Of a stretch of 48,270 bases of DNA, positions 118-48,028 are shown in pieces. The DNA comes from Prevotella sp. Lineage in GTDB: Bacteria; Bacteroidota; Bacteroidia; Bacteroidales; Bacteroidaceae. The notes beneath the pieces are model-generated. The model did not search any database. It worked only from the letters and a program-made list of their open reading frames with translations, and had not been told where the DNA came from. How positions within the stretch are numbered: the stretch's first letter is position 1; each line of letters opens with the position of its first letter. Position numbers and translations under genes: made by a program. The stretch is taken from the NCBI GenBank assembly GCA_017442825.1, contig JAFRYZ010000050.1:1-48270 (forward strand), in the 5' to 3' direction.

Positions 118-480
118 GAACTCCCGAAACTTAAATTATGTATATTTTATCCTATTGAAGTATAGTCGTCAACATTCAGGGCATAATCGTACCTAAAAGG
201 AAACGAATACTTATTGAAAAGACGTAAACGAAAGAACGTGTTATCTATTGAAGATAAAGCGATAATGCCTTGTTTGTGCGGCATGTTTGCGTGCACACAT
301 TGGATTTTAGTGCAAAATTATGCGTTTTTGACCTATGGCAAACATCAATATTTGAGGGAAAAACCTTACTTTTTGTATAATTATCAATTTCTTAAGCAAT
401 CTTCGCAAATATCAAAGAAACGCAACAACTTGAAAATAATAGTTGCCGAAAACTTACAGTCCGAAAGTTTAGCGGGCTCA
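118..480. other. Non-coding stretch, no gene seen
   Basis: A+T-rich DNA with no convincing coding frame. The only long open frame, from 214 on the plus strand, would start with TTG and runs through the promoter repeats downstream, so I do not accept it. No tRNA, known riboswitch or clear terminator is visible. The last 30 bases look like a decayed upstream edge of the repeat array that begins at 481. Confidence 0.5.
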
Positions 481-681
481 GAAAAGCCAAAATATTTTTT
501 GGTTTTTCTCTCACTTAACCGTACCTTTGAAAGGTATTCTAAAGTACTTTCGTTCGGAAAAGCCAAAATAATTTTTGGTTTTTCTCTCACTTAACCGTAC
601 CTTTGAAAGGTATTCTAAAGTACTTTCGTTCGGAAAAGCCAAAATAATTTTTGGTTTTTCTCTCACTTAACCGTACCTTTG
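481..681 (+). repeat. Tandem array of a 76-base hairpin-promoter cassette (2 full + 1 partial copies)
   Basis: Units begin at 481, 557 and 633 (exact 76-base period) and are almost identical. Each has an A/T-rich inverted repeat (GAAAAGCCAAAA ... TTTTTGGTTTTTC), then TCTCACTTAACCG and a TACCTTTG box. The first two units continue with GAAAGGTATTCTAAAG and CTTTCGTTCG, which leads into the next unit. Every unit therefore carries a full Bacteroidetes promoter whose -33 TTTG lies in the right arm of the hairpin. Only the third copy abuts a gene. Related cassettes with other stem sequences occur near 3186-3275, 12277-12375, 27981-28103 and 34541-34690. Confidence 0.85.
650..681 (+). promoter_or_regulatory. 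Promoter of the pseudouridine synthase gene
   Basis: TTTG at 650-653, a 20-base spacer and TACCTTTG at 674-681 match the Bacteroidetes -33/-7 consensus. Only six bases separate the -7 box from the ATG at 688. Bacteroidetes transcripts start a few bases after this box, so the mRNA is predicted to be leaderless or nearly so. Confidence 0.7.
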
Positions 682-687
682 TACCAC

Positions 688-2379
688 ATGAAAGAAGTAT
701 TTCACCCGTTACAGACTTCTATTGCTCCGCCGGAAAGGATGAACAATCCGTTCTTTTACAAGCCTCATCCGCTTTGCCTATTAGCGGCAGAGGAGGTGAA
801 AGGCATGATTGCAGCTCATGAAGACTGGAAGGACGAGGTTGGAAGGGGGAAAATGTTTGGTGTTTTGATAGTAGAACGCACTGCCTCAAACGAGGATGGG
901 GAGCGGATGGAACAAACAAACTTAGGATTCCTGGCGGCATATTCAGGACAAATCGGGGGAAGAAGCGACTGGGAAGGATTTGTTCCTGCCGTGTTCGACT
1001 ACCTGCAACCTGATGGCTATTTCAAGCAACAGGAGGCTGAGATTGACCAGTTGAACCGCGAAGTGGAAAGGCTGACGGCATCGACAGAAAGACTACGGAT
1101 TATAGAATCATTAAATATGGTACGCGCGAGGGCTGAGAAAGCCATTGCCCGGCATCAAGCGGTGATGAAAGCTGCGAAGATGTTACGCGACCAACGACGA
1201 CGCGAGGCTCTGCTTTCTGAAAGAGAACAGCACGAGATGATTCGCGAAAGTCAATTTCAAAAGGCGGAGTTTCATCGCATGAAACAACGCTTTTCCGATG
1301 AAATCGAGAAAAAAGAACAGGAAAAGGTTGTTTTCGATAAACGTATTCAGACACTAAAACACAAAAGGAAGGAGAAGTCTGACGACTTGCAAAGGTGGCT
1401 GTTCTCTCATTTTGAAATGCTGAACAAAGAGGGAGAACGGCGCAACTTATTGGAGATTTTCTCAGAGACGGCTTTGCGTGTGCCGCCTGCTGGCGCTGGG
1501 GAGTGTTGCGAACCGAAGCTGTTGCAATATGCATACGCACATGGCCTGCGCCCGTTGTGCATGGCGATGTTCTGGTGGGGAGCAAGTCCAAAGGGGAAGG
1601 TGCGCCATCACGGTCAATTCTACCCTGCATGTAGCGGCAAGTGTAAGCCTATCTTAACATGGATGCTCGACCTGAGAAAACTCGAAAAGGAAATGGACGG
1701 CATCAAGAACGACCCGCCAGAGTTGCCCATTGTCTATGAAGATGACGACATCCTTGTGGTCAACAAGCCTGCTGGCATACTCTCTGTTCCTGGCATAGAC
1801 GCCCCCTACTCCGTCTGTTCTATCATTCGCGAACGCTATCCCGACTTGCTGTCGCCATTGATGGTACACCGTCTGGACATGTCAACGAGTGGATTGTTGG
1901 TTCTCGCAAAAACGAAAGAGGCGCACTGGAAACTGCAACAACAGTTTGAAGAACATTCAGTAACAAAGCAATACCGCGCCATTCTCGACGGTGAGGTGCA
2001 TGGAGAAGGTATTATTGATTTGCCGTTGCGCCCAGACCTGTTGGACAGACCGCGACAGGTGGTGGACTATGAAAACGGGAAACGGGCGGTGACAAGATAT
2101 CGGGTAGATAAAGTGGAAGACGGAAAGACGTGGATAACGCTCTTCCCGAAAACAGGACGCACACACCAGTTGCGCGTTCATTGTGCCCATCAAGACGGCT
2201 TGAACTGCCCTATTCTAGGCGATCCTATCTATGGCAGGAACGGTAACGAGCAAGAGGAACGCATGTATCTACACGCCGAACGACTGGAACTGACGCATCC
2301 TACGACGGGAAAAAGGATAGTTTTTATAGTGAAGAGTGAAGAGTGGAGAGTTAAAGGAGGTGGAGAAAACGCTCGATGA
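688..2379 (+). CDS. RluA-family RNA pseudouridine synthase with long N-terminal extension
   Basis: Predicted to convert specific uridines of rRNA or tRNA to pseudouridine in the cytoplasm. The protein is 563 residues, about twice a minimal RluA. Residues 1-110 carry the YKPHPLCLLAAEEV segment seen in Bacteroidetes members. Residues about 115-245 are a charged coiled coil rich in Glu, Arg and Lys. A short Cys-containing linker (around GKVRHHGQFYPACSGKCK) follows, then the catalytic domain with HRLDMSTSGLLVLAKT (catalytic Asp near residue 396) and GRTHQLRVH near 490. No S4 domain is seen. ATG at 688 is chosen because the frame's only earlier start is a TTG inside the promoter box. The last residues (VKSEEWRVKGGGENAR) are encoded by a 7-base tandem repeat and overlap the 3' end of the convergent kinase gene, so the native tail was probably replaced. 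Confidence 0.9.
   Translation: MKEVFHPLQTSIAPPERMNNPFFYKPHPLCLLAAEEVKGMIAAHEDWKDEVGRGKMFGVLIVERTASNEDGERMEQTNLGFLAAYSGQIGGRSDWEGFVPAVFDYLQPDGYFKQQEAEIDQLNREVERLTASTERLRIIESLNMVRARAEKAIARHQAVMKAAKMLRDQRRREALLSEREQHEMIRESQFQKAEFHRMKQRFSDEIEKKEQEKVVFDKRIQTLKHKRKEKSDDLQRWLFSHFEMLNKEGERRNLLEIFSETALRVPPAGAGECCEPKLLQYAYAHGLRPLCMAMFWWGASPKGKVRHHGQFYPACSGKCKPILTWMLDLRKLEKEMDGIKNDPPELPIVYEDDDILVVNKPAGILSVPGIDAPYSVCSIIRERYPDLLSPLMVHRLDMSTSGLLVLAKTKEAHWKLQQQFEEHSVTKQYRAILDGEVHGEGIIDLPLRPDLLDRPRQVVDYENGKRAVTRYRVDKVEDGKTWITLFPKTGRTHQLRVHCAHQDGLNCPILGDPIYGRNGNEQEERMYLHAERLELTHPTTGKRIVFIVKSEEWRVKGGGENAR
2327..2358 (+). repeat. Heptanucleotide repeat inside the pseudouridine synthase 3' end
   Basis: Consecutive seven-base units GTGAAGA, GTGAAGA, GTGGAGA and GTTAAAG encode the end of the protein. 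The same 7-base periodicity with other sequences appears elsewhere in the window, for example ACAATTG units near 3283 and 18562. The repeat also holds the stop codon of the opposite-strand kinase. Confidence 0.6.
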
Positions 2380-3169
2380 GGATGCCTCGATTCTTGTCGG
2401 GCAGGTCTTTATTCAAGTCTATGAGTTGATAGACCGTGTCCATAGCAATGCGGGTACTCTCTTTCAAGGGTTCGCCATCAAGCAGATGTCCAATGAGGAT
2501 GGCTGAGAAGAGGTCGCCAGTGCCGTGGAAATGTCCAGGAATTTCTTCGTATTCCAAATGGAAATACTCTCCGTTATAATGGTTGTAACCGACAACACAG
2601 TTCTTGCCGTCAACACGGCAACTGGTGATGAGCACCGACTTGGCGCCAATTTGACGTATAGCATCGAGGAGCAGACAAGCCTGTTCCCACTTCAACCCCT
2701 CTTCGCAGAACGGAACGTCCGCGAGATAGGTTGCTTCAGTATAGTTGGGGAAGGTGAGGTCGGCAACACTTACCATCTCACGCATAGCAGCCACCTGCTC
2801 AACCGTCATTCCATTATAAAGACGACCACCGTCACCCATCACAGGATCGACAAAAATAATGGTTCCCTTTGCCGCTTGTTCCTGACAATAACCAGAAAGC
2901 AACTTGGCTTGTTCTTCGCTGTACATCCAACCTGTACAAATGGCATCATAACCAAAACCTAACTGTTTCCATACGGAAAGAGTACCACGGATATAAGATG
3001 TGGTGTCGAGGGCATTGAACTTTCCATAGTCGAATGTGTTGGAAACCAATGCTGTAGGTAGGTTGAAGGTGGGATGGCCAAGATAAGAGAGTACTGGAAG
3101 CATCGCACCCATACCCACCTTACTGTGACCAGCCATGTCGTTGACAAGAAGAATTTGTTTTTTGCCCAT
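2351..3169 (-). CDS. Pyridoxamine/pyridoxal kinase (PdxY/PdxK-like, ribokinase superfamily)
   Basis: Predicted to phosphorylate pyridoxal or pyridoxamine with ATP in vitamin B6 salvage. The length, 272 residues, is normal for the family. It opens with ILLVNDMAGHSKVGMGAMLPVLSYLG, the typical B6-kinase N-terminus. It has VDPVMGDGG in the middle and the anion-hole motif GTGDLF at residues 216-221, whose Asp is the catalytic base. ATG at 3169 follows a -7 box at 3186-3193 by 16 bases. Its last 29 bases overlap the repeat-derived tail of the convergent pseudouridine synthase. A hydroxymethylpyrimidine kinase role is less likely given the N-terminal motif. Confidence 0.85.
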   Translation of the reverse strand: MGKKQILLVNDMAGHSKVGMGAMLPVLSYLGHPTFNLPTALVSNTFDYGKFNALDTTSYIRGTLSVWKQLGFGYDAICTGWMYSEEQAKLLSGYCQEQAAKGTIIFVDPVMGDGGRLYNGMTVEQVAAMREMVSVADLTFPNYTEATYLADVPFCEEGLKWEQACLLLDAIRQIGAKSVLITSCRVDGKNCVVGYNHYNGEYFHLEYEEIPGHFHGTGDLFSAILIGHLLDGEPLKESTRIAMDTVYQLIDLNKDLPDKNRGILIERFLHLL

Positions 3170-3185: not shown

Positions 3186-3275
3186 CAAAGGTACGATTAA
3201 GTGAGGACAATACAAAAGGAAAGCGGCTTTTCTTTTTATTGTCGAGCGTGAGTAACTTCGACGAAGTCAAAGGTA
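3186..3275 (-). repeat. Hairpin-promoter cassette upstream of the B6 kinase, with a second promoter box
   Basis: On the minus strand two TACCTTTG boxes (3275-3268 and 3193-3186) lie 82 bases apart. Between them are ACTTCGTCGAAGT (a small palindrome), ACTCACGCTCG, a long inverted repeat (GACAATAAAAAGAAAAG pairing with CTTTCCTTTTGTATTGTC) and CTCACTTAATCG. The proximal promoter has TTTG at 3216-3213 with a 19-base spacer. The order of parts matches the arrays at 481 and 27981, but the stem sequence differs. Confidence 0.75.
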
Positions 3276-3280
3276 CGATA

Positions 3281-3317
3281 AATAATTGATAATTGAAAAT
3301 TGACAATTGACAATTAT
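3281..3317. repeat. Heptanucleotide AATTG repeat
   Basis: Five adjacent seven-base units: ATAATTG, ATAATTG, AAAATTG, ACAATTG, ACAATTA. The same family recurs at 18561-18597, 46390-46424 and 46781-46815. It lies between the divergent B6 kinase and transketolase genes. No function can be read from it. Confidence 0.75.
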
Positions 3318-10348: not shown

Positions 10349-12271
10349 TTAAAGCATATCTGACTTGATGTGCTCAACATAATCATACAAACGCTTATAG
10401 AAAGGATGTTGGGTCAGCGTCTCTACATCGCCAAGGATAATCAATTTCATCCTGGCTCGGGTGATGGCAACATTCATGCGGCGTAGATCGCGCAGGAAAC
10501 CTATCTGCCCTTCCTCGTTGGAGCGTACCAACGAAATGAGGATGACATCACGCTCCTGACCTTGAAATCCGTCAACGGTATTGACAGAAATCAGACTGCG
10601 GTAGGGTTTGAAGAACGGGTGCTTTTTGATCAGGTGCCGCAAGTATTGCACTTGGGCACGATAGGGTGAGATGATGCCCACATCAATACGCTCGTCGAGG
10701 ATGCGCTGTTTCCCTATTTTGGTAAAATAGTCTTCCAATACCCGCAGCGTCTGTTCTGCTTCACCCCTATTGATTCGTCCGAAAGTAGAAGCGACAAATT
10801 CTTCTTTGGGAACTTTGTAGGAGGATTCTGCTAGTTCAGGCAACTCCGATGAATCAATCCACATCATAGGATTGTCGTAGTCGAGAATGCCGCGATACTT
10901 GATTTGAGGTGCACTCTCCACCATCCCACCATAGAACCAATCACTGGAAAAACGCATGATTTGCTCGTTCATGCGATACTGGACACGTAAAAGAGTCACT
11001 ACCTCAGGTTTGTTTTCCACGATACGTTCCATAAGCGTCTTGCCAAGTCCAGCCTTCAGTGCTGCAACGCTTTTCACAGTAGGCGGCAATTGGCAATGGT
11101 CGCCTGCAAAGACCACACGCGAAACCCGTCGGATAGGAATCCAGCAGGCTGCCTCCAAAGCCTGTGCAGCCTCATCAATAAAGAGCGTTCCAAACTTCCT
11201 TCCCTGTAACAAACGATTATCTGCTCCTACCAGAGTGGAAGCCACTACCCGCGCTTCCCCAAAAAGTTCTGACTGGATGCGAATCTCTATCTCTGTCGCC
11301 CTACTCTTCAAGCGATCCATTTTTTGATAATAACTCTCACTGCCCCGCTTACGCTGACTACGCAACTCACGTATAGCCTTACGAATACTCCACAATGTGG
11401 TATAGTCGGGATGGGCCTCGAACCGCCGCTCATAGGTAAAAGATAACATTTTATCATTCACACGAGTAGGATTGCCAATACGCAACACATTGATGCCACG
11501 GTCAACCAATTTCTCCGAAATCCAGTCGACAGCCATATTGCTTTGCGCACAGACCAACACCTGCGGCTCGCGCATCAGAGCTTCGTTAATCGCCTCAACA
11601 AGTGTAGTCGTCTTCCCCGTTCCCGGTGGTCCATGCACCACCGCCACATCTTTGGCACACAACACCTCGTTGACCGCCTGTTCTTGTGTGTTGTTCAACC
11701 ATGGGAAACGCATCGGTCCGAACGAGAAACGCTCTGCCTTCTGATGTGTATAGAACAAGTCGCGCAGGTATGCCATCCGGTTTTCACGAGCCTTGATGAC
11801 GCGATCTAAGGCATCAAACATAGCTCGATAGCTAGTCTCATCGAACGACAACTGACAACCCACTGGAGTTTCCGATGACTGCAGGTCTATCAGCGGTGCC
11901 GAGTCGGGAACGGTCAGTACCATTCGGTCGCCTTCAACATAAGACACCGTTGCCGTAAAAGAGAAATAGCGAAGGGATTGAACTTTCATTTTGTCACCCG
12001 TGGTTCTGAAGAAGACAACAGCTCTACCGAATTCAAAGTTGTGCTCTATGTCTGTATCGGCAGTACGGAACACTTCTATCGTCAGCTGATTCAACGAGTT
12101 ATAGAAACTCTTTCCAACCCGTAAAGGATACCACGCATCACCTCGCTTCACTTTCCGCATCATACCCGTTTGTTCGGTTTGCTTGCGGAAAGCTTCTTTC
12201 TCTGCATAGTATTCCAATTGCAAAAGCAGCCGTTGTTGCTGGAGTGCTTGTATGGATGAAGATTGGTTCAT
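10349..12271 (-). CDS. SF1 superfamily DNA/RNA helicase (IGHMBP2/Upf1-like AAA protein)
   Basis: A 640-residue ATP-dependent helicase of the Upf1-like group. An N-terminal beta-barrel region (about 1-190) precedes Walker A VVHGPPGTGKTTT (about 205-217). Then come motif Ia (VLVCAQSNMAVDWI), the DEAA-type Walker B GTLFIDEAAQALEA near 367, motif III FAGDHCQLPPTV, motif IV (YRMNEQIMRFSS), motif V (VNTVDGFQGQERDVI) and motif VI (NVAITRAR). Bacteroidetes proteins of this length are common, and their role in DNA or RNA processing is not settled. ATG at 12271 is preferred because the frame upstream runs through the promoter cassette. Five bases separate the -7 box from the ATG. Confidence 0.88.
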   Translation of the reverse strand: MNQSSSIQALQQQRLLLQLEYYAEKEAFRKQTEQTGMMRKVKRGDAWYPLRVGKSFYNSLNQLTIEVFRTADTDIEHNFEFGRAVVFFRTTGDKMKVQSLRYFSFTATVSYVEGDRMVLTVPDSAPLIDLQSSETPVGCQLSFDETSYRAMFDALDRVIKARENRMAYLRDLFYTHQKAERFSFGPMRFPWLNNTQEQAVNEVLCAKDVAVVHGPPGTGKTTTLVEAINEALMREPQVLVCAQSNMAVDWISEKLVDRGINVLRIGNPTRVNDKMLSFTYERRFEAHPDYTTLWSIRKAIRELRSQRKRGSESYYQKMDRLKSRATEIEIRIQSELFGEARVVASTLVGADNRLLQGRKFGTLFIDEAAQALEAACWIPIRRVSRVVFAGDHCQLPPTVKSVAALKAGLGKTLMERIVENKPEVVTLLRVQYRMNEQIMRFSSDWFYGGMVESAPQIKYRGILDYDNPMMWIDSSELPELAESSYKVPKEEFVASTFGRINRGEAEQTLRVLEDYFTKIGKQRILDERIDVGIISPYRAQVQYLRHLIKKHPFFKPYRSLISVNTVDGFQGQERDVILISLVRSNEEGQIGFLRDLRRMNVAITRARMKLIILGDVETLTQHPFYKRLYDYVEHIKSDML

Positions 12272-12276
12272 TGGTA

Positions 12277-12375
12277 CAAAGGTACGATTAAGCGAGGAAA
12301 GTGCCAAAAGTTTAAGGCTATTTCGAGCGTGAGTACCCTCGCCCAGACTGCAACAGTCTGCGCAAAAGGTACAAA
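12277..12375 (-). promoter_or_regulatory. Hairpin-promoter cassette of the helicase gene
   Basis: On the minus strand TTTG (12308-12305), a 20-base spacer and TACCTTTG (12284-12277) form the promoter. Upstream lie CTCGCTTAATCG, a short interrupted stem, and ACTCACGCTCG, the order seen in the other cassettes. Farther out the small palindrome is replaced by a different inverted repeat (CGCAGACTG-TTG-CAGTCTGGGCG). Confidence 0.65.
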
Positions 12376-15837: not shown

Positions 15838-15961
15838 GTGCAAAAATCCGATTAAGCGAATAGAAATCAAAAACTATTTTGTTTTCAAGAGTGAAAGGAT
15901 TTTATTTAAACCACAGACAAAGCATAAAAAGGGAAATCCCTATCATTTTTGGGGAATTTTC

Positions 15962-16021: not shown

Positions 16022-16432
16022 ATGAAACGAAGAGTATTGATGATGATGATGGTCGCATTCCTTGGAATGACAACCGTAAACGCACAGACCTTGCGTGGTA
16101 GCAACGGACAAAGTATAGGAAGAATAGACCGCGACGGCACCATTCGTGGCAGCAACGGTCAGTCAATAGGAAGGTACGACAATAACGGGACTGTTCGTGG
16201 CAGCAACGGACAAAGCATCGGAAGGATTGAAAGCAACGGTACCTTCCGCGGCAGCAACGGACAGAGCATCGGTAGAATTGACAACGACGGCACAGTACGC
16301 GGCAGCAATGGACAAGCCATAGGAAAGGTTGAGCGCGATGGTACTATTCGCGATGCTAACGGGAGAAGTATCGGCAAAGCCCAGAACTGTGACCCGAAAC
16401 AAGCTGCAGCCTCCTTCTTCTTCTATAAGTAA
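16022..16432 (+). CDS. Secreted 17-residue-repeat protein (5-fold beta-flower type)
   Basis: A 136-residue exported protein. After a signal peptide (MKRRVLMMMMVAFLGMTTVNAQ) come six tandem 17-residue units with consensus RGSNGQSIGRIDxDGT, the last one degenerating to RDANGRSIGKAQNC. The pattern matches Bacteroidetes proteins named 5-fold beta-flower, in which each unit forms a small beta strand pair around a ring. Function is unknown. The units are also repeated at DNA level (51 bases), so copy number may vary between strains. It ends in AASFFFYK. prmC follows after 13 bases, so transcription may continue into it. Confidence 0.78.
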   Translation: MKRRVLMMMMVAFLGMTTVNAQTLRGSNGQSIGRIDRDGTIRGSNGQSIGRYDNNGTVRGSNGQSIGRIESNGTFRGSNGQSIGRIDNDGTVRGSNGQAIGKVERDGTIRDANGRSIGKAQNCDPKQAAASFFFYK

Positions 16433-18560: not shown

Positions 18561-18597
18561 AAGAATTATCAATTGTCAATTGTCAATTATCAATTTT
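18561..18597. repeat. Heptanucleotide AATTGTC repeat, part of the pyrE promoter
   Basis: Seven-base units AATTATC, AATTGTC, AATTGTC, AATTATC, AATTTTA. They are the reverse complement of the family at 3281-3317. A TTG inside it lies 22 bases before the pyrE -7 box, so the repeat may provide the -33 element. Confidence 0.7.
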
Positions 18598-21812: not shown

Positions 21813-21821
21813 CATCCGCAA

Positions 21822-21983
21822 ATGCCGCAATGTTTGCGCAAGCCGAACGCAGAGAGCCATCTTTGCTGAGGCGCAGCCAAACATCGGGCAGTAGTGAAAC
21901 GTATGCCGCAATGTTTGCGCAAGCCGAATGCAGAGAACCATCTTTGCTGAGGCGCAGCCAAACATCGGGCAGTAGTGAAGCAA
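21822..21983 (+). repeat. Two 81-base tandem repeats in the tRNA-Leu leader
   Basis: Units start at 21822 and 21903 and differ at only a few bases. Each begins with ATGCCGCAATG, the same 11 bases found at 21984 where the tRNA starts. Each contains ATGTTTG ... CAAACAT arms that can fold into a hairpin around GCGCAAGCC and GAGGCGCAGCC. Each copy thus repeats the first nine bases of the tRNA followed by a structured insert. Confidence 0.8.
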
Positions 21984-21985
21984 AT

Positions 21986-22069
21986 GCCGCAATGGTGGAA
22001 TTGGTAGACACGAGGGACTTAAAATCCCTTGGCCGCAAGGCTGTGCGGGTTCGAGTCCCGCTCGCGGCA
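21986..22069 (+). tRNA. tRNA-Leu (anticodon UAA)
   Basis: An 84-base tRNA. The acceptor GCCGCAA pairs with TCGCGGC (one A-C mismatch) and is followed by discriminator A. The D arm contains TTGGTAGACA. The anticodon stem AGGGA/TCCCT has loop CTTAAAA with anticodon TAA at 22020-22022. A long variable arm (TTGGCCGCAAGGC) marks class II, and the T arm is GCGGG-TTCGAGT-CCCGC. CCA is not encoded, since ACACC follows. It decodes UUA. The downstream lipoprotein gene appears to begin inside its T arm. Confidence 0.95.
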
Positions 22070-27115: not shown

Positions 27116-27973
27116 ATGAATACTATCTTCATCGTACTACCCATACTCACTATCCTGATGTTCGACTTGGGATTGGCGTTGAAACCGCAAGATTTTCAAC
27201 TTTTCCTGCATCGTCCGCTCCCCATCTTGGCAGGTTTGTTGGGGCAGATTGTAGTATTACCCTTGCTGGCTTGGACTATCTGCTACTTCTTCCACGTCAG
27301 TCCGCTGTTTGCCATCGGCATCATGCTCATTGCCTGCAGTCCGGGCGGCAGTTCCAGCAATGTCTTTTCCATGTTGGCAGGTGGCGACGTAGCCTTGTCA
27401 GTGTCGCTGACCGCCCTGAGCAGCGTCATCACCCTGTTTACTGTACCCGCCATCATGGCCTTCGTGACGCAATCCGTGGGTACGGCTACCGACATCCAGT
27501 TGCCTGTTGGCAACCTGTTGGTACAGAACCTTGTGCTGATGGCTGTTCCCATTTTCCTCGGACTATGGTTGGCGATGCGCCGTAAGGCGTTGGCAGAGCG
27601 GTTGCATGCCCTGTTGAAGCGGTTGGCATTTCCCTGTCTGCTGTTGCTGGTCACCATCTTCTTCCTGCAACATCGCGACACCATTGTCAACTCGTTTGCC
27701 ATGCTGGGCGGTGCCGTCACCGTGCTTATCATAGCCGCCATGGGTAGCGGAGCCCTGTTGTCGTGGGTGATGCGGCTGACATCGCGCGAACGCCGCACCA
27801 TCGTCATCGAAGTGGGCATGCAGAATGCCGCCCAAGCCATCACGGTGGCCTGCAGTCCGTTTGTCTTCAACAATGAGACGATAGCCGTTCCCGCCATCAT
27901 CTATGCCCTGATGATGAACATCATTCTGCTCATCTACGTGTTTTGCTTAGGAGGTCGAAGGGCAAAGGTCTAA
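27116..27973 (+). CDS. Bile acid:sodium symporter family transporter
   Basis: A 285-residue inner-membrane protein of the BASS family, which moves organic anions such as bile acids or pantoate with sodium. About nine hydrophobic segments are visible from MNTIFIVLPILTILMFDLGL onward. Diagnostic stretches are LIACSPGGSSSNVFSMLAGGDVALS and EVGMQNAAQAITVA, the two discontinuous-helix crossover regions. The last residues (GGRRAKV) come from repeat-like DNA (GGGCAAAGGTCTAAGG), so the native end may have been altered. The substrate is unknown. Confidence 0.85.
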   Translation: MNTIFIVLPILTILMFDLGLALKPQDFQLFLHRPLPILAGLLGQIVVLPLLAWTICYFFHVSPLFAIGIMLIACSPGGSSSNVFSMLAGGDVALSVSLTALSSVITLFTVPAIMAFVTQSVGTATDIQLPVGNLLVQNLVLMAVPIFLGLWLAMRRKALAERLHALLKRLAFPCLLLLVTIFFLQHRDTIVNSFAMLGGAVTVLIIAAMGSGALLSWVMRLTSRERRTIVIEVGMQNAAQAITVACSPFVFNNETIAVPAIIYALMMNIILLIYVFCLGGRRAKV

Positions 27974-27980
27974 GGTCAAT

Positions 27981-28103
27981 CGGAAAAACTCAAATAAATT
28001 TGGTTTTTCCCTCGCTTAATCGTATCTCTGACTTTGTCGAAAATACTCACGCTCGGAAAAACTCAAATAAATTTGGTTTTTCCCTCGCTTAATCGTATCT
28101 TTG
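27981..28103 (+). repeat. Two hairpin-promoter cassettes in tandem (73-base period)
   Basis: CGGAAAAACTCAAAT pairing with ATTTGGTTTTTCC, then CTCGCTTAATCG and TATCTCTG (28023-28030), is repeated from 28054 with a perfect TATCTTTG (28096-28103). Between copies is ACTTTGTCGAAAATACTCACG, the same linker as in the other cassettes. The upstream copy's -7 box is mutated (TCTG for TTTG), so only the gene-proximal copy looks fully active. Confidence 0.8.
28072..28103 (+). promoter_or_regulatory. Promoter of the DUF4491 operon
   Basis: TTTG at 28072-28075 in the hairpin's right arm, a 20-base spacer and TATCTTTG at 28096-28103, with the ATG 22 bases further on. It probably drives four genes up to the terminator at 32759. 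Confidence 0.7.
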
Positions 28104-28125: not shown

Positions 28126-28410
28126 ATGTATTTCACTGGAATCACCATAGCCGTGATGACCTTTATCACTATCGGCATCTGGCATCCTATCGTTATCAAG
28201 ACAGAGTATTACTGGGGCACGCGCCCTTGGATTCTCTACTTGATAGTAGGTTTGGGGTGTTGCGTGACTGCCCTTTTCGTAGCGAATGTCTATCTGTCTT
28301 CGTTCCTGGGTGTCTTTGGTGCATCAGCCCTCTGGGGTATCGGTGAACTCTTTACGCAGAAGAAGCGTGTTGAAAAGGGATGGTTTCCCAAAAATCCGAA
28401 AAGAAAATGA
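28126..28410 (+). CDS. DUF4491 family small membrane protein
   Basis: A 94-residue protein with three hydrophobic segments: FTGITIAVMTFITIGIWHP, ILYLIVGLGCCVTALFVANV and SSFLGVFGASALWGIGELF. IGIWHPIVIKTEYYWGTRPW is the typical DUF4491 segment. Function is unknown. The C-terminal tail (QKKRVEKGWFPKNPKRK) is basic and probably cytoplasmic. Its stop codon overlaps the next gene's start as ATGA, so the two are translationally coupled. Confidence 0.82.
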   Translation: MYFTGITIAVMTFITIGIWHPIVIKTEYYWGTRPWILYLIVGLGCCVTALFVANVYLSSFLGVFGASALWGIGELFTQKKRVEKGWFPKNPKRK

Positions 28411-32792: not shown

Positions 32793-34505
32793 TCAACTAT
32801 TTCTTTGTTTTGTTCCCATTCGGGCTTCAACGACGTTGACGACATAGTCGCCCAGCTTTTCGCATTCGCTGATGATGTCCATATACATTGTACCGATGGC
32901 ATAGGTATATTTGTGGTCATCGATATCGTTGATGTTCTGAGACTTCAACTGGTTGCGGTAGTTGTTGATTTCGTTTTCTATGTTGAACGAACGGTTGATG
33001 TCGTTCTGCTCGCGGTAGCCCACCAGCGTGGCATTCATCTGCGACAAGGCTTGGTTGGTGAGTTCCATCATCTGATGCATGTGATGGTATTGGTCTTGGG
33101 TGAAATCTTCCTTGCCCTTGATGCGTCGGTTCAGTGTTCGGGCAATGTTATAACAAGAGTCACCGATACTCTCTATCTCGCTGATTTCGCGCAACATGGC
33201 TCGAATCTTTGCCTTCGTCTCGTCGGAGAGATGGGCATCTGAGATTTCGTCCAGGTATTTGGCTATCTCTATCTCCATGTTGTCGGAGATGCCTTCGTAT
33301 TTCTCTATGCGCGAGAAGGCTTTGACAAAGGCTGCCTCATCTTTCTCTACCACCAGTTCGCGCACCATGCCGAACATGCGCTGGATACGGACGGCAAAGG
33401 ATTGGATTTCTTTTTGTGCCTCAAGCACGGAAAGCTCTGGCGTCTTCATGAAGCCGGCTGTGATGAAACGCAGACGGAAGTCTTCTTCCTCGCCATCGAC
33501 CTTCTTCGGTTTGATGACACGACAGACAATCTTTTCTATCTGAGGTATGAACCAGATGAGGATGATGGTGTTGGCAACATTGAAGCAGGTGTGGAAGGCT
33601 GCCAATACGAACGACAGCTTGGCGGCGTTGGCAAGGAAGCCAGGAGCACCCTTGACCATCGTCTCGTCGTAGCCCACCAGTCCGCACACCATATCGACAA
33701 AGGGTTTGAAGACAACAAGTATCCAGCAGATGCCGAAGAGGTTGAAGAACATATGGGCAAAGGCAGCTCGACGCGCCTGTGTGTTGGCTGTCATCGCTGC
33801 GATATTCGAAGTAACAGTAGTTCCGATGTTCTCACCCATGACGAGGGCTATGCCCTGATAGATGGGCAGTACGCCACTGGAACAGAGTATCATCGTGATG
33901 GCCATAACGACTGCCGACGACTGGACACAGAGTGTCAGCACACCTCCCAATAGAAGGAAGATAATAGTGGTGACAAACGAATTGGGGTCAAACTGCGAAA
34001 AGAAGTCGAGCACAGCCTGATTCTCACCCAGATGCATGTCGATACCTGTCTGGCGAAGAGTGCCCAGTCCGAGAAACATAAAGGCGATACCGAAAAGGAA
34101 ATCACCGATAAATCGTTTCTTTTTTGAATAAATCAGGATGATGGCAATGAAGAATGCCGGATAGACAAAGTCGGTGATGTTGAACGAGAAACCGGCAGAC
34201 ATAATCCACGCCGTCAGCGTTGTACCGATGTTGGCACCCATGATGACGGAGATGGCTTGTGCCAACGTCAACAGTCCCGCATTGACAAACGAGACGGTCA
34301 TCACCGTAGTAGCAGTGGACGACTGCACGGCAGCTGTGACGAACATTCCCGTCAGCATTCCCGTAAACCGGTTGGTAGTCATAGCTTGCAGGACGTGACG
34401 CAAATGCGAACCTGCCATTTTCTGCAAACTGTCGCTCATCGATTTCATACCGAACATCAGCAAAGCCAACGAACCGATGAGCTTAAAGAAAATCCAAATC
34501 GACAT
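32793..34505 (-). CDS. Na/Pi cotransporter family protein with PhoU-like C-terminal domain
   Basis: A 570-residue inner-membrane protein predicted to move phosphate with sodium. The two inverted family repeats are visible: AAVQSSTATTVMTVSFVNAG with GANIGTTLTAWI, and CVQSSAVVMAITMILCSSG with GENIGTTVTSNIAA. After about residue 340 a soluble helical PhoU-like domain continues to the end (EISEIESIGDSCYNIARTL, SECEKLGDYVVNVVEAR). ATG at 34505 is chosen, since the frame's earlier start would be TTG. The promoter is a hairpin cassette whose -7 box (34541-34548) lies 35 bases upstream. No pho regulator is adjacent. Confidence 0.88.
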   Translation of the reverse strand: MSIWIFFKLIGSLALLMFGMKSMSDSLQKMAGSHLRHVLQAMTTNRFTGMLTGMFVTAAVQSSTATTVMTVSFVNAGLLTLAQAISVIMGANIGTTLTAWIMSAGFSFNITDFVYPAFFIAIILIYSKKKRFIGDFLFGIAFMFLGLGTLRQTGIDMHLGENQAVLDFFSQFDPNSFVTTIIFLLLGGVLTLCVQSSAVVMAITMILCSSGVLPIYQGIALVMGENIGTTVTSNIAAMTANTQARRAAFAHMFFNLFGICWILVVFKPFVDMVCGLVGYDETMVKGAPGFLANAAKLSFVLAAFHTCFNVANTIILIWFIPQIEKIVCRVIKPKKVDGEEEDFRLRFITAGFMKTPELSVLEAQKEIQSFAVRIQRMFGMVRELVVEKDEAAFVKAFSRIEKYEGISDNMEIEIAKYLDEISDAHLSDETKAKIRAMLREISEIESIGDSCYNIARTLNRRIKGKEDFTQDQYHHMHQMMELTNQALSQMNATLVGYREQNDINRSFNIENEINNYRNQLKSQNINDIDDHKYTYAIGTMYMDIISECEKLGDYVVNVVEARMGTKQRNS

Positions 34506-34540: not shown

Positions 34541-34572
34541 CAAAGATACGATTAAGCGAGCACAAAAACAAA
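34541..34572 (-). promoter_or_regulatory. Promoter of the Na/Pi symporter gene
   Basis: Minus-strand TTTG at 34572-34569, a 20-base spacer and TATCTTTG at 34548-34541. Confidence 0.68.
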
Positions 34573-34690
34573 GAACTTGTTCTTTTTTTGTCAAGCGAGA
34601 GTATCTTCGACATAGTCAATGATACGATTAAGCGAGCACAAAAACAAAGAACTTGTTCTTTTTTTTGTCGAGCTTTCCTTTGTTTTTTTG
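34541..34690 (-). repeat. Two hairpin-promoter cassettes (76-base period) in the divergent symporter/kinase intergenic region
   Basis: GATACGATTAAGCGAG followed by CACAAAAACAAAGAACTTG and TTCTTTTTTTGTC occurs at 34545 and again at 34621, exactly 76 bases apart. The inner stem is AACAAAGAAC/GTTCTTTGTT-like. Between copies is AGCGAGAGTATCTTCGACATAG, equal to the linker of the other cassettes. The outer copy's box is changed (ATCATTG), so the gene-proximal copy is the likely active promoter. Confidence 0.8.
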
Positions 34691-45481: not shown

Positions 45482-48028
45482 TCATTCCTCTCCTCCTCCT
45501 TCGTACGAAGAATTAAAGTCGTTCTCTTCCTGTTCGCCCTGCTGCGGTTTTCCTTTCCTCTTCGGCGTATTGTTGCCGAAGCTGTAGGTCAGCGTGAAGC
45601 GTACACTACGTCCGCGTCGCCAGTTTTCCTGATGGCGTGTAAAGTCGTCCGTCTCCGTATAGGTACGCCAGCGGCGCGAGTTCAGCAAGTCGCGGCAGTT
45701 GATGGCGAGCGTGAGTTGTTTGTTCAGGAAACTCTTGCGCACACCCAGGTCGATGTTGTAGTTAGCCTTGCGGTAACCCTGTGCCGTCACCTGTCGTGCA
45801 CGGTAGCGCCCCGTTGCCTGGAACGAGATGCCATAAGGCAGCATGACACTTGCCTGCGTACGTACATTCCATGTGAAGTTATGGTTGCCTTCGCCGCTCA
45901 CCGTCTGTCCGTCAATGTCGAAGTCAAAGCCGTCCACCTTGTAATAATAGAAGTTGGCACTCGTACTGAGGTCGAGGATGCGGAAGAGTTTGTTCTTAGC
46001 CGTTATCTCCAGACCCGAACTGGTACTCTTTGCCACGTTGAAATTCGTCTGGTACATCAGTCCGTCTGTGCTGCTCTGGTAGGTGATGCGTTGCATGACA
46101 TCCGTCGTCGGACGGTAGTAAGCCGATACCAGCAGCGAGTGGTTCTTCCACTGTTTCAGGTAGTTCAGCGAGAACGAGTTGGAATATTCCGGTGTCAGTT
46201 CCGGGTTACCGTAAGAGATCACCGTGGCGTCGCGCGTATTCTTAAACGAGTTCAGCTGTCCGCCCCACGGCCGTTTCAGTCGTCGTGTATAGTTCAGTTG
46301 CAACTGTCCCGTGGGCGTTATCTGATAGGAAAGGAAGATGCTGGGGAACAACTGGAAATAATCTTTTTTAAAAGTTGAGGGTTGAGAGTAATTGTCCATT
46401 GTCAATTGTCCATTGTCAATTGAATAGTGCTCCTGCTCCCAGTTATAGCTCTTCGTGTCCACCTTCCAGTATTCGCCGCGAAGACCAGCCATGATGCCGA
46501 ACTTACCCAGTTTCAGCGTTCCTGTAGCATAGAGGGCATGCACGTCCATATCGTAGATAAATCGGTTGAAGAAGGCTTTGTCTTCCACCGCCTCAGATCC
46601 GTCGAAATGTCTGTCGTCGATATAGCTCTCCTGTGGCGTGTTCTCGTGCGAGAATCGTCCGTTGTAACCCGCCTGCAACAGGAATTTGTCCGAGATAGGG
46701 TTCTCATAGTCCAGCTTCACCTCCCATGCACGGTTGTTGATGTTCTGCGGCCGACTCTGGTACATATATTCGGTAGGCCTTAATTGTCCATTATCAATTG
46801 TCCATTGTGAATTATATGTAGTGCTGTCCTGATAGATATTGTCGTTTCTGGACTTCCATTGTCCGTACGATACCGTCAGGTCCAGGAAATGCCGGTCGGT
46901 GAAGTTGTGGCGATAGTTCATTTCACCGTTCCACATGTGCATGCCAGCTCTGGCATTGGTATAGCGATACATGGTGCGCGTGTCCTCGGCAGCCCCTATC
47001 GTACCGTAGTGATAGGGAGTCATGTTGTTGCCGCGGCCTCCACCGTGCATCGTCATTCCCGTCAGCGACAAGTCGTCTTTCTTCGTAGCATGCCAAGTCA
47101 GTCCGGCACGCGCGAAGATGCCGTTGCCCATGTTCGTGTTGCGGGTGCTGTAGTTCTGGTAGGTGTTCGAGTTCAGGAACGTCTGGTCGCTCACGGCGCC
47201 GCCCTTGCTGTGGCGGTGGCGATAGCCCACGTTGACGAAGGCATCCCACTTGCCGCTGTTGTAGTTGAAGTTGAAACTTGTCTGAGCGCCCTTGCGCGTG
47301 TCGGCGCCAGCCTGCACCGAACCATAGTAGCCGGCCTTGCGGTCTTTCTTCAGCACGATGTTGATGATGCCTGCCGACCCTTCAGCCGAAAACTTGGCAG
47401 AAGGGTTGTCGATGACCTCGATGCGCTCGATGCTCTCTGCCGGCAGCTGCTGCAGTATCTCCGCACGGTTGTCGCTGGTCAGTCCGCTCGACTTGCCGTT
47501 GATCCACACCTCCACACTGCTGTTGCCTCGCAGCGACACGTTGCCGTCTTGGTCTACTTCTACCGACGGGATATTCTCCAACGCATCGGAAGCGGAGCCA
47601 CCGGCATTGCTGATCTGCTGGTCCACGTTGAACGACTTGCGGTCCACCTCCAGTTTCATCTCCTGCCGCTGGGCGGTCACCGTCACCTCTTCCAGCAGAT
47701 GGCTGTCTTCCGACAGGTAGAGAGCGGTGAAGTGACGGGTGCGACTTTTCGATGAAATCGTGAAATTTCGGACCAAATCCTTGTATCCGGTAAACGAAAC
47801 CTTCAGCGTATAGTTGCCGTCGTCAAGTCCTGTGACGGTGAAATTGCCGGAAACATCGGTCAACGCTCCTTTCAGAATCTTCTCCTCGCCACGCTTCGTC
47901 ACTACGACGTTGATAAACTCCAACGCCTCGTTGCTCTTCTTGTCAAGCACTTTACCCTTGACAACACCCTGAGCATCTGCCCCTATTGCACACAACAGGA
48001 GCAGACCAAAAAGTATCAATCGATTCAT
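45482..48028 (-). CDS. Outer-membrane beta-barrel receptor (TonB-dependent type) with CarboxypepD_reg-like domain
   Basis: An 848-residue outer-membrane protein. Signal peptide MNRLILFGLLLLCAIGADAQ is followed by a carboxypeptidase-like regulatory domain (GVVKGKVLDKKSNEALEFIN to about 105). The plug has EEVTVTAQRQEMKLEVDRKS, NIPSVEVDQDGNVSLRGNSS and GSAGIINIVLKK, and the barrel of the OMP_b-brl_3 type spans about 250-820. No SusD partner lies beside it, so it is not a glycan SusCD pair; the ligand is unknown. Two stretches, around residues 405-416 (SQWTIDNGQLR) and 535-546 (SIDNGQLTMDN), are encoded by heptamer repeats inserted in barrel loops. The tail is charged (GEQEENDFNSSYEGGGEE). ATG at 48028 is preferred. 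Confidence 0.86.
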   Translation of the reverse strand: MNRLILFGLLLLCAIGADAQGVVKGKVLDKKSNEALEFINVVVTKRGEEKILKGALTDVSGNFTVTGLDDGNYTLKVSFTGYKDLVRNFTISSKSRTRHFTALYLSEDSHLLEEVTVTAQRQEMKLEVDRKSFNVDQQISNAGGSASDALENIPSVEVDQDGNVSLRGNSSVEVWINGKSSGLTSDNRAEILQQLPAESIERIEVIDNPSAKFSAEGSAGIINIVLKKDRKAGYYGSVQAGADTRKGAQTSFNFNYNSGKWDAFVNVGYRHRHSKGGAVSDQTFLNSNTYQNYSTRNTNMGNGIFARAGLTWHATKKDDLSLTGMTMHGGGRGNNMTPYHYGTIGAAEDTRTMYRYTNARAGMHMWNGEMNYRHNFTDRHFLDLTVSYGQWKSRNDNIYQDSTTYNSQWTIDNGQLRPTEYMYQSRPQNINNRAWEVKLDYENPISDKFLLQAGYNGRFSHENTPQESYIDDRHFDGSEAVEDKAFFNRFIYDMDVHALYATGTLKLGKFGIMAGLRGEYWKVDTKSYNWEQEHYSIDNGQLTMDNYSQPSTFKKDYFQLFPSIFLSYQITPTGQLQLNYTRRLKRPWGGQLNSFKNTRDATVISYGNPELTPEYSNSFSLNYLKQWKNHSLLVSAYYRPTTDVMQRITYQSSTDGLMYQTNFNVAKSTSSGLEITAKNKLFRILDLSTSANFYYYKVDGFDFDIDGQTVSGEGNHNFTWNVRTQASVMLPYGISFQATGRYRARQVTAQGYRKANYNIDLGVRKSFLNKQLTLAINCRDLLNSRRWRTYTETDDFTRHQENWRRGRSVRFTLTYSFGNNTPKRKGKPQQGEQEENDFNSSYEGGGEE
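46390..46424 (-). repeat. Heptanucleotide repeat inside the receptor gene (copy 1)
   Basis: Minus-strand units TCAATTG, ACAATGG, ACAATTG, ACAATGG, ACAATTA. They translate as SIDNGQLTMDN within a presumed extracellular loop. Confidence 0.75.
46781..46815 (-). repeat. Heptanucleotide repeat inside the receptor gene (copy 2)
   Basis: Minus-strand units TAATTCA, CAATGGA, CAATTGA, TAATGGA, CAATTA. They translate as NSQWTIDNGQL, about 130 residues before copy 1 in the protein. Confidence 0.75.

Follow-up and report, generated by a model that had tools for sequence, protein, structure and literature searches.

The Correia elements of Neisseria are promoter-bearing MITEs, small non-autonomous mobile repeats that lie upstream of genes and supply promoters, as set out in the part of the published account used here (PMC10969869). 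BrickBuilt, a MITE of Porphyromonas gingivalis, is an intergenic element of a genus related to Prevotella, with predicted stem-loops and a reported promoter activity; the leader, tail and 23-nt direct repeats that the extract of its description mentions were not found in any of the Prevotella units read (PMC4596501). REP elements of the REP/RAYT systems are GTAG/CGTC-tagged palindromes of 20–40 bp, and, like the units described below, they are small palindromes present in many copies, singly and in tandem; in the sections of PMC3733652 that we draw on the families are mapped near gene 3′ ends, whereas the Prevotella units measure 61–78 bases and lie at gene starts, and no Y1 transposase was found in three of the genomes that carry them (G000, G034 and G060).

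The DNA analysed here, referred to as the window, is a stretch of 48 270 nt from a Prevotella sp. (contig JAFRYZ010000050.1; genome G000, 2.31 Mb, 79 % complete). Two other systems of folded DNA are also relevant: integron attC sites have a conserved outer stem, internal bulges and a variable inner stem, and it is their bottom strand that folds, while the promoters of the phage N4 virion RNA polymerase are template-strand DNA hairpins with small loops. Correia elements for their part have their own terminal repeats and a TA target. The Prevotella element is short and non-coding, occurs in many interspersed copies and has precise empty and filled sites, as MITEs do, and it has an outward promoter upstream of genes, judged by sequence and position, as Correia elements do. 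Its identity, however, appears to lie in its fold and not in terminal repeats of fixed sequence: the two sides of the outer stem, AAGRTAC/GTAYCTT, form an inverted pair that covaries, and an autonomous copy was absent among the few left-only motifs inspected. It differs from Correia elements further in its target, the TTT of a −7 box, which is rebuilt, in its ends, NNATA (or a small palindrome) and GTAYC, and in its range, Prevotella and some other families of its order. The one-strand folding of REP/RAYT and IS200/IS605 systems may have a counterpart in the strand asymmetry of the folding energies and in the G·A motifs, and the conserved outer stem, bulges, variable inner stem and single folded strand recall attC; the outer stem nevertheless lacks an R-box GTTRRRY (GTTRRRY/RYYYAAC core) in both alignments (A1 and A2, below), and there are no gene cassettes. 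Unlike the N4 promoters, the boxes are of the ordinary Bacteroidetes −33/−7 type, and the hairpin extends upstream. By analogy, the element would work like a promoter-carrying MITE of the Correia kind and fold like a single-strand recombination site, and for Correia elements, REP/RAYT and attC alike, one or more of the defining features tested are absent from it.

Elements of the window

An earlier note, made from the letters of the window, had described three copies spaced by 76 bases at 481–681, and Tandem Repeats Finder returns just such an array (period 76, 2.6 copies, 99 % matches). The core CTYRCTTAAYCG is found on the + strand at 510, 586, 662, 28011 and 28084 and on the − strand at 3205, 12296, 34560 and 34636, and a −7-like box follows every one of them. 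The further loci that the note had called comparable are all real, but those at 3186, 12277 and 34541 are on the minus strand. The box arrangement TTTG-N20-TACCTTTG is true of the first array, but ACTCACGCTCG is not universal, since the array at 481–681 reads ACTTTCGTTCG and the locus at 34541 reads ACTCTCGCTTG instead; nor does every cassette hold a complete promoter, the upstream copies with TATCTCTG and TATCATTG having broken −7 boxes. The features are as follows, R1 being a covariance model.

465..529, + strand: array copy 1, farthest upstream (hairpin arm and promoter; −7 box 522–529), left half divergent; R1 E 6e-8
521..547, + strand: linker palindrome between copies, comprising −7 box, transcription start region and the AAGTAC left end of the next unit; from sequence and family covariation
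542..605, + strand: array copy 2, complete element, −7 box 598–605; R1 E 6e-16
618..681, + strand: array copy 3, complete, gene-proximal, −7 box 674–681, 6 nt ahead of the ATG at 688; R1 E 6e-16
688..2379, + strand: RluA-family pseudouridine synthase gene, downstream of the array; NCBIfam TIGR00005 E 2e-56, 191.4 bits, slightly below the cut-off of 192.7
2351..3169, − strand: pyridoxamine kinase-like gene, downstream of the element at 3186..3257; NCBIfam NF005491 E 2e-61, slightly below the curated cut-off
3186..3257, − strand: complete element, long-stem class, −7 box 3186–3193; R1 E 3e-10
10349..12271, − strand: IGHMBP2-family helicase gene, downstream of the element at 12277..12338; TIGR00376 E 4e-119
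12277..12338, − strand: complete element, −7 box 12277–12284; R1 E 9e-13
15841..15902, − strand: additional element without a −7 box, found with the covariance model; R1 E 2e-10
27966..28030, + strand: upstream copy, −7 box broken (TATCTCTG at 28023–28030); R1 E 7e-10
28041..28103, + strand: complete gene-proximal element, −7 box 28096–28103; R1 E 1e-19
32793..34505, − strand: Na/Pi cotransporter-related gene, downstream of the elements at 34541; NF037997 E 5e-49, over the cut-off
34541..34606, − strand: complete gene-proximal element, −7 box 34541–34548; R1 E 4e-13
34617..34683, − strand: upstream copy, −7 box broken (TATCATTG at 34617–34624); R1 E 1e-4

Older boxes accompany two of these elements: a −7 box at 3268–3275 lies upstream of the element at 3186..3257, which is flanked by divergent genes (core at 3205), and a decayed box, GTACCTTTTG, lies at 12363–12372 near the element at 12277..12338. 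The element at 15841–15902 ends in GGATTTTTG, keeps an outer stem AAATCC/GGATTT and is directly upstream of a separate TACCTTTG promoter. The ORF that follows the element at 28041..28103 (28126–28410) has no NCBIfam match. Arrays of identical units, such as that at 542–681, look like the product of tandem duplication rather than of separate insertions.

Anatomy of the unit

Read towards the gene, the unit is AAGGTAC-TCACGCTCG-(inner stem, 26–43 nt)-CTCGCTTAATC-GTACC-TTTG. The whole of it forms one long imperfect hairpin, a point that was overlooked in the earlier reading, together with the insertion into a pre-existing promoter and the decay of upstream copies described below. The outer stem, AAGRTAC/GTAYCTT, is joined by an internal loop in which GATTAA faces GNRA and by a short G-Y/R-C helix, and a tandem G·A/G·A mismatch and a variable AT-rich inner stem complete the fold. 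The inner stem, whose right arm carries the −33 TTTG, falls into classes such as GAAAAGCTCAAATAAATTTGGCTTTTC and ACAAAGCAAAAGAAAAACAAGTTTTCCTTTTGCTTTGT; the −7 box is made up of the GTAYC of the element's 3′ end and TTTG. Arm-to-arm length is 61–78 bases in the aligned units, and the period of arrays is mostly 73–87 including the linker to the next unit, which consists of NNATA or else of a small palindrome, GGCTTCGCCGA for instance. A left end of the NNATA kind after TTT is common to G000, G010 and G060.

A second cassette, type B, has the same architecture with other loops, AAGGTAG-GTTGCRYCTCAG ... CTTCGRYTTGCA-CTACCTTTG; its outer pair is changed from C-G to G-C, and in the copies read its RYC and GRY segments covary by eye. 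Types A and B occur together in the arrays L009, L057, L059 and L060. The second cassette (AAGGTAG-GTTGCRYCTCAG...CTTCGRYTTGCACTACCTTTG) was seen in G000 at loci L009, L027, L035, L037, L054, L057, L059, L060 and L204. Two loci of another genome, G058 (L133 and L134), carry an additional repeat, some 70 bases long (CCATATAACAAATTTGTTTAGGAGGTGTTATTCGGG...), within the left loop of their units, twice in tandem in L134, and a third (L333) has a unit without the inner stem (GTACTTTCGCTCGCTTATTCGTACC), the apparent cause being recombination between CGCTCG-like motifs.

Covariation and strand preference

Type-A units, 101 in all (52 from G000 and 49 from other genomes; 96 distinct), were extracted with a pattern that admitted C or T at the left middle position and A or G at the right one, within one substitution over the right motif. 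Of the distinct units 41 were aligned as A1 and 35 as A2, and the remaining 20 (16 with intermediate stem lengths and four second copies) were set aside. Among the 101 units the base in the outer stem covaries with the −7 box of the same unit (Fisher P 3e-13) and is more weakly associated with the upstream box (P 1e-6), and the middle pair covaries with the spacer base (P 1e-17; C-G 56, T-A 34, C-A 11, T-G 0); since the copies are related, these P values overstate their independence, and because of the bases that the pattern admits, others could hardly appear at the middle pair. On the template strand, 95.5 % of the cells of the 41 A1 units are paired, compared with 88.0 % after shuffling and 18–58 % when slid, and changes on both sides are seen in 10 of 20 pairs; the 35 A2 units have such changes in 7 of 21 predicted pairs.

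The template strand gives the better whole-unit fold in 87 of the 96 distinct units with RNA parameters (mean −17.7 versus −13.6 kcal/mol) and in 74 of 96 with DNA parameters. The inner stem alone has no strand difference by energy, which we counted against a mobile element. On the template strand the conserved mismatches of A1 and A2 are GA/GA and GATTAA opposite GNRA, the motif names being our own reading. AT-biased mutation of the free arm could be part of the source of the strand bias, but the zero T-G cells and the conserved G·A tandem speak against it as the whole cause. What is conserved is probably the folded single strand, and not the sequence.

Copy number and taxonomic range

The 20-base pattern CTYRCTTAAYCGTAYCTTTG, with up to two mismatches, has 86 sites in G000, 48 of them exact, and its reversed control has none. 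A variant pattern, CTCGCTTAATCGNNNNTA, which places a wrong spacer before the −7 box, has no matches in G000 because the box follows directly. The control pattern matches once in G160, and a 13-base control for the left motif once in G058 and three times in G031. The strict pattern is present in 20 of 59 genomes of the same genus and in none of 40 others of the order. With R1 at E ≤ 0.001, carriers number at least 50 of the 59, at least 36 of them with five or more copies, and at least five of the 40 genomes from other families (at least 16, 8, 6, 1 and 1 copies); copies were read in G060, G084 and G087, the two single matches standing apart. At E ≤ 1e-6 only G000 was found among the candidates scored in 198 genomes sampled from the phylum. 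All of these R1 counts are lower bounds, as 53 candidates were scored per genome in the order sample and 27 in the phylum sample. Some genomes have a spacer variant of their own, for example CTYRCTTATTCG in G176–G178.

Of 19 named genomes reached through rluA, six match the pattern with at most one mismatch, one of them once, and all six are uncultured Prevotella or Prevotellaceae MAGs; at this setting it is absent from Segatella baroniae B14, S. albensis and Prevotella sp. KH2C16, and none of the 19 rluA orthologue loci (45–59 % identity) has a unit at that gene. A blastn search of INPHARED phages and PLSDB plasmids with one unit gave no match, and five IMG/VR contigs have the exact core together with a hairpin and a left arm. 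Twenty loci searched leniently against Rfam gave only miRNA-like matches below cut-off, to another long hairpin in L133. Literature searches, including a full-text search for the motif strings, found no description of the element.

Position before genes and decay of upstream promoters

In G000, 55 of 63 array-last sites are followed within 100 nt by the ATG of an ORF of 60 aa or longer, 51 of them within 50 nt. When other promoter cassettes are considered there are 55 gene-proximal sites, and such an ATG lies within 40 nt in 51 of them (median 22); among the exceptions are L032, where a tRNA-like sequence comes next, and L055, where the next sequence resembles RNase P RNA, both named by eye. 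The downstream genes, also assigned by eye, are mixed housekeeping genes, among them ffh, dxs, metK, pheS, mfd, rpsP, typA, fabD, dut and upp. The −7 box fits TAnnTTTG at all 55 gene-proximal sites, and the promoter has the Bacteroidetes housekeeping form, its TTTG spacing (TTTG-N19/20-TAnnTTTG) having been read on a few sequences. At L031, L036, L043 and others in G000 the ATG is 4–10 nt past TTTG, which suggests near-leaderless mRNAs.

Where another promoter lies downstream, 10 of 31 boxes in G000 are broken (TCTG, TTTA, CATTG, CATC) and 21 intact (P 1.3e-5), a count in which a hand-made pattern list judged whether another cassette or promoter follows, L009:1312 was assigned by hand, and the sites came from the pattern with at most two mismatches, so that more decayed copies are missed. 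The pattern fits a state in which the gene-proximal promoter carries the function and the older ones drift. From their sequences, many Prevotella genes appear to be read from promoters within one arm of a small folded element of about 75 bases, and these promoters presumably fire.

Empty and filled sites

Related IMG/VR contigs with a common left flank present one site in two states, empty in L327 and L328 and filled in L322, L324 and L325. The empty allele has the native box, TAACTTTG / TATCTTTG, and then CAACCGAAAGTTG; in the filled allele the native box is followed by the unit, by TATCTTTG and then by the former downstream sequence, and the contig of L322 ends only about 20 bases into the latter. 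On one side, L327 and L324 (the latter identical to L325 across the 1699 bases compared) are 91 % identical along 192 bp, and beyond that there is an offset of 74 bases. The left box of L322 is TAAC, as in the empty L327, and its right box is TATC, which therefore comes from the element. A NAD-dependent ligase (L327) and a DarB-like antirestriction protein (L325) are encoded near the site, so the contigs are probably large mobile elements, phage or not, and they may be plasmids or integrative elements rather than phages.

In G060, which belongs to another family, the hairpins that match R1 are located in a host repeat, and, relative to the empty paralogues L315, L316 and L319, L321 has a single clean insertion of 64 bases with TTT at its borders; L318 is cut off by the end of its contig, and L317 is filled at an inverted target with a less clean alignment. 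The host repeat itself is a separate palindrome, CACTGGATTTAGTT..GCCATATTTATATCACTTTCTTTG, with seven pattern matches (L315–L321), several of them at contig ends. The G060 hairpins end in GCATT, GCAGT or GCAAT followed by TTT, without a −7 box, and the 300 nt downstream hold no start of an ORF of 60 aa or more at any of the seven loci read; the hairpin is therefore independent of being a promoter. At ffh, units are present only in G000 among 30 loci read (two with less than 100 nt upstream), between the first promoter and the gene, and where G000 has a unit between two TACCTTTG boxes G046 has TTACCTTTGCACGGCAAAA.

In 54 of the 101 units the 45 nt ahead of the left arm contain an exact TAnnTTTG, compared with 3.3 in letter shuffles that do not keep dinucleotides. 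Thirty-six of these boxes are part of a preceding cassette core and 18 are not (one is beside masked bases); the 18 look like older native promoters. TTT, extending up to CTTTG, is found on both sides of the insertions, where a duplication and an identical element end look alike, and the difference between empty and filled sites could conceivably be a deletion from the filled state.

Proposed origin of the promoters

The observed structure, covariation, position, decay pattern and empty and filled sites are probably to be explained by a small non-autonomous mobile element of Prevotella's order that is conserved by its fold and targets TTT in promoters. It would insert at the TTT of an existing −7 box, between the TTT and the G of TAnnTTTG, where its 3′ end GTAYC with TTTG would form a new −7 box, the 3′ arm of the inner stem giving the TTTG at −33. 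The gene would keep a promoter, now part of the element, while the old upstream promoter, being redundant, would decay, and arrays would grow through further insertions and through tandem duplication. With a TTT inside TAnnTTTG and TAYC at the end of the element, an insertion into a promoter would restore one, and this would explain the orientation, the choice of site, the tolerance before essential genes and the arrays. Mobility would proceed through a single-stranded DNA (or RNA) form, the folded strand being recognized by an enzyme acting in trans and joined at TTT. Tentatively, and with rather more doubt than confidence, we suggest further that this is a class of structure-conserved mobile elements copied as a folded single DNA strand, which targets and rebuilds the −7 box and has replaced many housekeeping promoters in Prevotella; the rebuilt box would make insertion harmless before essential genes and let the element become the gene's promoter.

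Much of what the earlier note proposed holds for such an element: a promoter-like module recurs and is copied through the genome (86 sites against none for the reversed control), it adjoins genes on their upstream side (51 of 55 gene-proximal sites with an ATG within 40 nt), its stems vary while pairing is kept, with strong covariation beyond the −7 box, and the covariance-model search proposed there finds many copies in relatives (at least 50 of 59 same-genus genomes), so that neither of the outcomes named in the note as refuting was seen. The part that finds no support is terminator insulation, in which the stem would stop upstream read-through and its right arm would be the promoter. The stem does lie upstream of promoter-like sequence, sense to the gene at the sites read, and is in some cases very stable (−22 and −23.5 kcal/mol in L041 and L067), but whole-unit stability and the conserved G·A tandem favour the other strand, the template, in none of the copies read is the stem followed by a U-run, the copy at 3205 stands between divergent genes, and the seven G060 loci have related hairpins with neither a −7 box nor a nearby ORF start; such a module is highly improbable. 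Operators of a dimeric factor, with the conserved spacer CTCRCTTAATCG as its site, would make these a regulated promoter class, and would suit both a spacer that the species share, each with its own drift (CTYRCTTATTCG in G176–G178), and the promoters that have the same core without the left arm. A reader of double-stranded DNA would not, however, need arms that change in sequence while their pairing is kept, and the mixed housekeeping genes and few RNA genes, the cores without a −7 box in G060, and the insertion seen in empty and filled sites make this quite unlikely.

The hairpin could instead belong to an upstream or antisense transcript and act as a leader, a regulatory RNA or an RNA intermediate. 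GNRA and tandem G·A motifs with G·U tolerance are typical of RNA, and RNA energies favour the template-strand sequence more clearly than DNA energies do; yet an RNA of the better strand would be antisense, with its start within the gene start or past it, Rfam has no matching family at 20 loci, and an intact upstream promoter is absent for some gene-proximal units, and we give this reading little credence. Quasi-palindromes made and corrected by template switching during replication would pair without selection, and could yield inverted arms beside promoters, tandem copies and compensatory changes between copies, but the mismatches (the G·A tandem and GATTAA opposite GNRA) are conserved and not corrected, the same motifs recur at unrelated loci, in several families and on mobile contigs, and the insertion borders are precise. 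A mutational by-product of this sort is scarcely credible.

Prevotella is a dominant gut and rumen genus, and the promoters of housekeeping genes are usually regarded as fixed host sequence. Under the mobile-element explanation, dozens of housekeeping promoters in a single genome have the appearance of a mobile hairpin's 3′ end, a mobile element seeming to supply start signals for everyday genes, and promoter turnover in Prevotella may therefore be driven by a transposable element, with function preserved on insertion. Covariation with one strand favoured offers a direct route toward the enzyme that reads the fold. Caution is also called for in annotating promoters and hairpins in this order, where such stems are probably neither ordinary terminators nor operators.

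Age and mobilization

In G177, 4 of 28 loci share with G000 both an orthologous gene (69–85 % identity) and the promoter core, two of them (L227 and L234) with the complete unit, and L235 and L272 (of G177 and G176) look identical over the unit; such old, vertically shared sites mean that transposition is not frequent. G176–G178 have many sites with the core but without the left arm, the left motif being present in 11 of the 28 G177 loci. These cores are either remnants or an ancestral form, and their number means that the core may also matter as a promoter.

No mobilizing gene was found. The Y1 transposase (PF01797) has no match in G000 (79 % complete), G034 or G060 and was rejected as the mobilizer on account of these three carriers, although it is present in some others. 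Left motifs without the listed right half were inspected in G000 and G058, and none borders an autonomous copy: the three new ones among 27 places in G000 are a degenerate copy, a unit whose right arm gives way to heptamer repeats, and an unrelated match, and the three regions in G058 include deletion derivatives.

Other repeats

The heptamer repeats, AATTGAC/AATTATC/AATTGTC, occur in the window at 3284–3315, 18564–18595 and 46390–46422, and also in L206 and L330, where they replace the right arm of a unit. At the Rfam gathering cut-offs the single match in the window is a tRNA. A tandem repeat of 81 bases (21819–21994) lies beside a tRNA gene at 21986–22069, and an ORF with 51-base repeats (16022–16432) encodes a RGSNGQSIGRID-like repeat protein.
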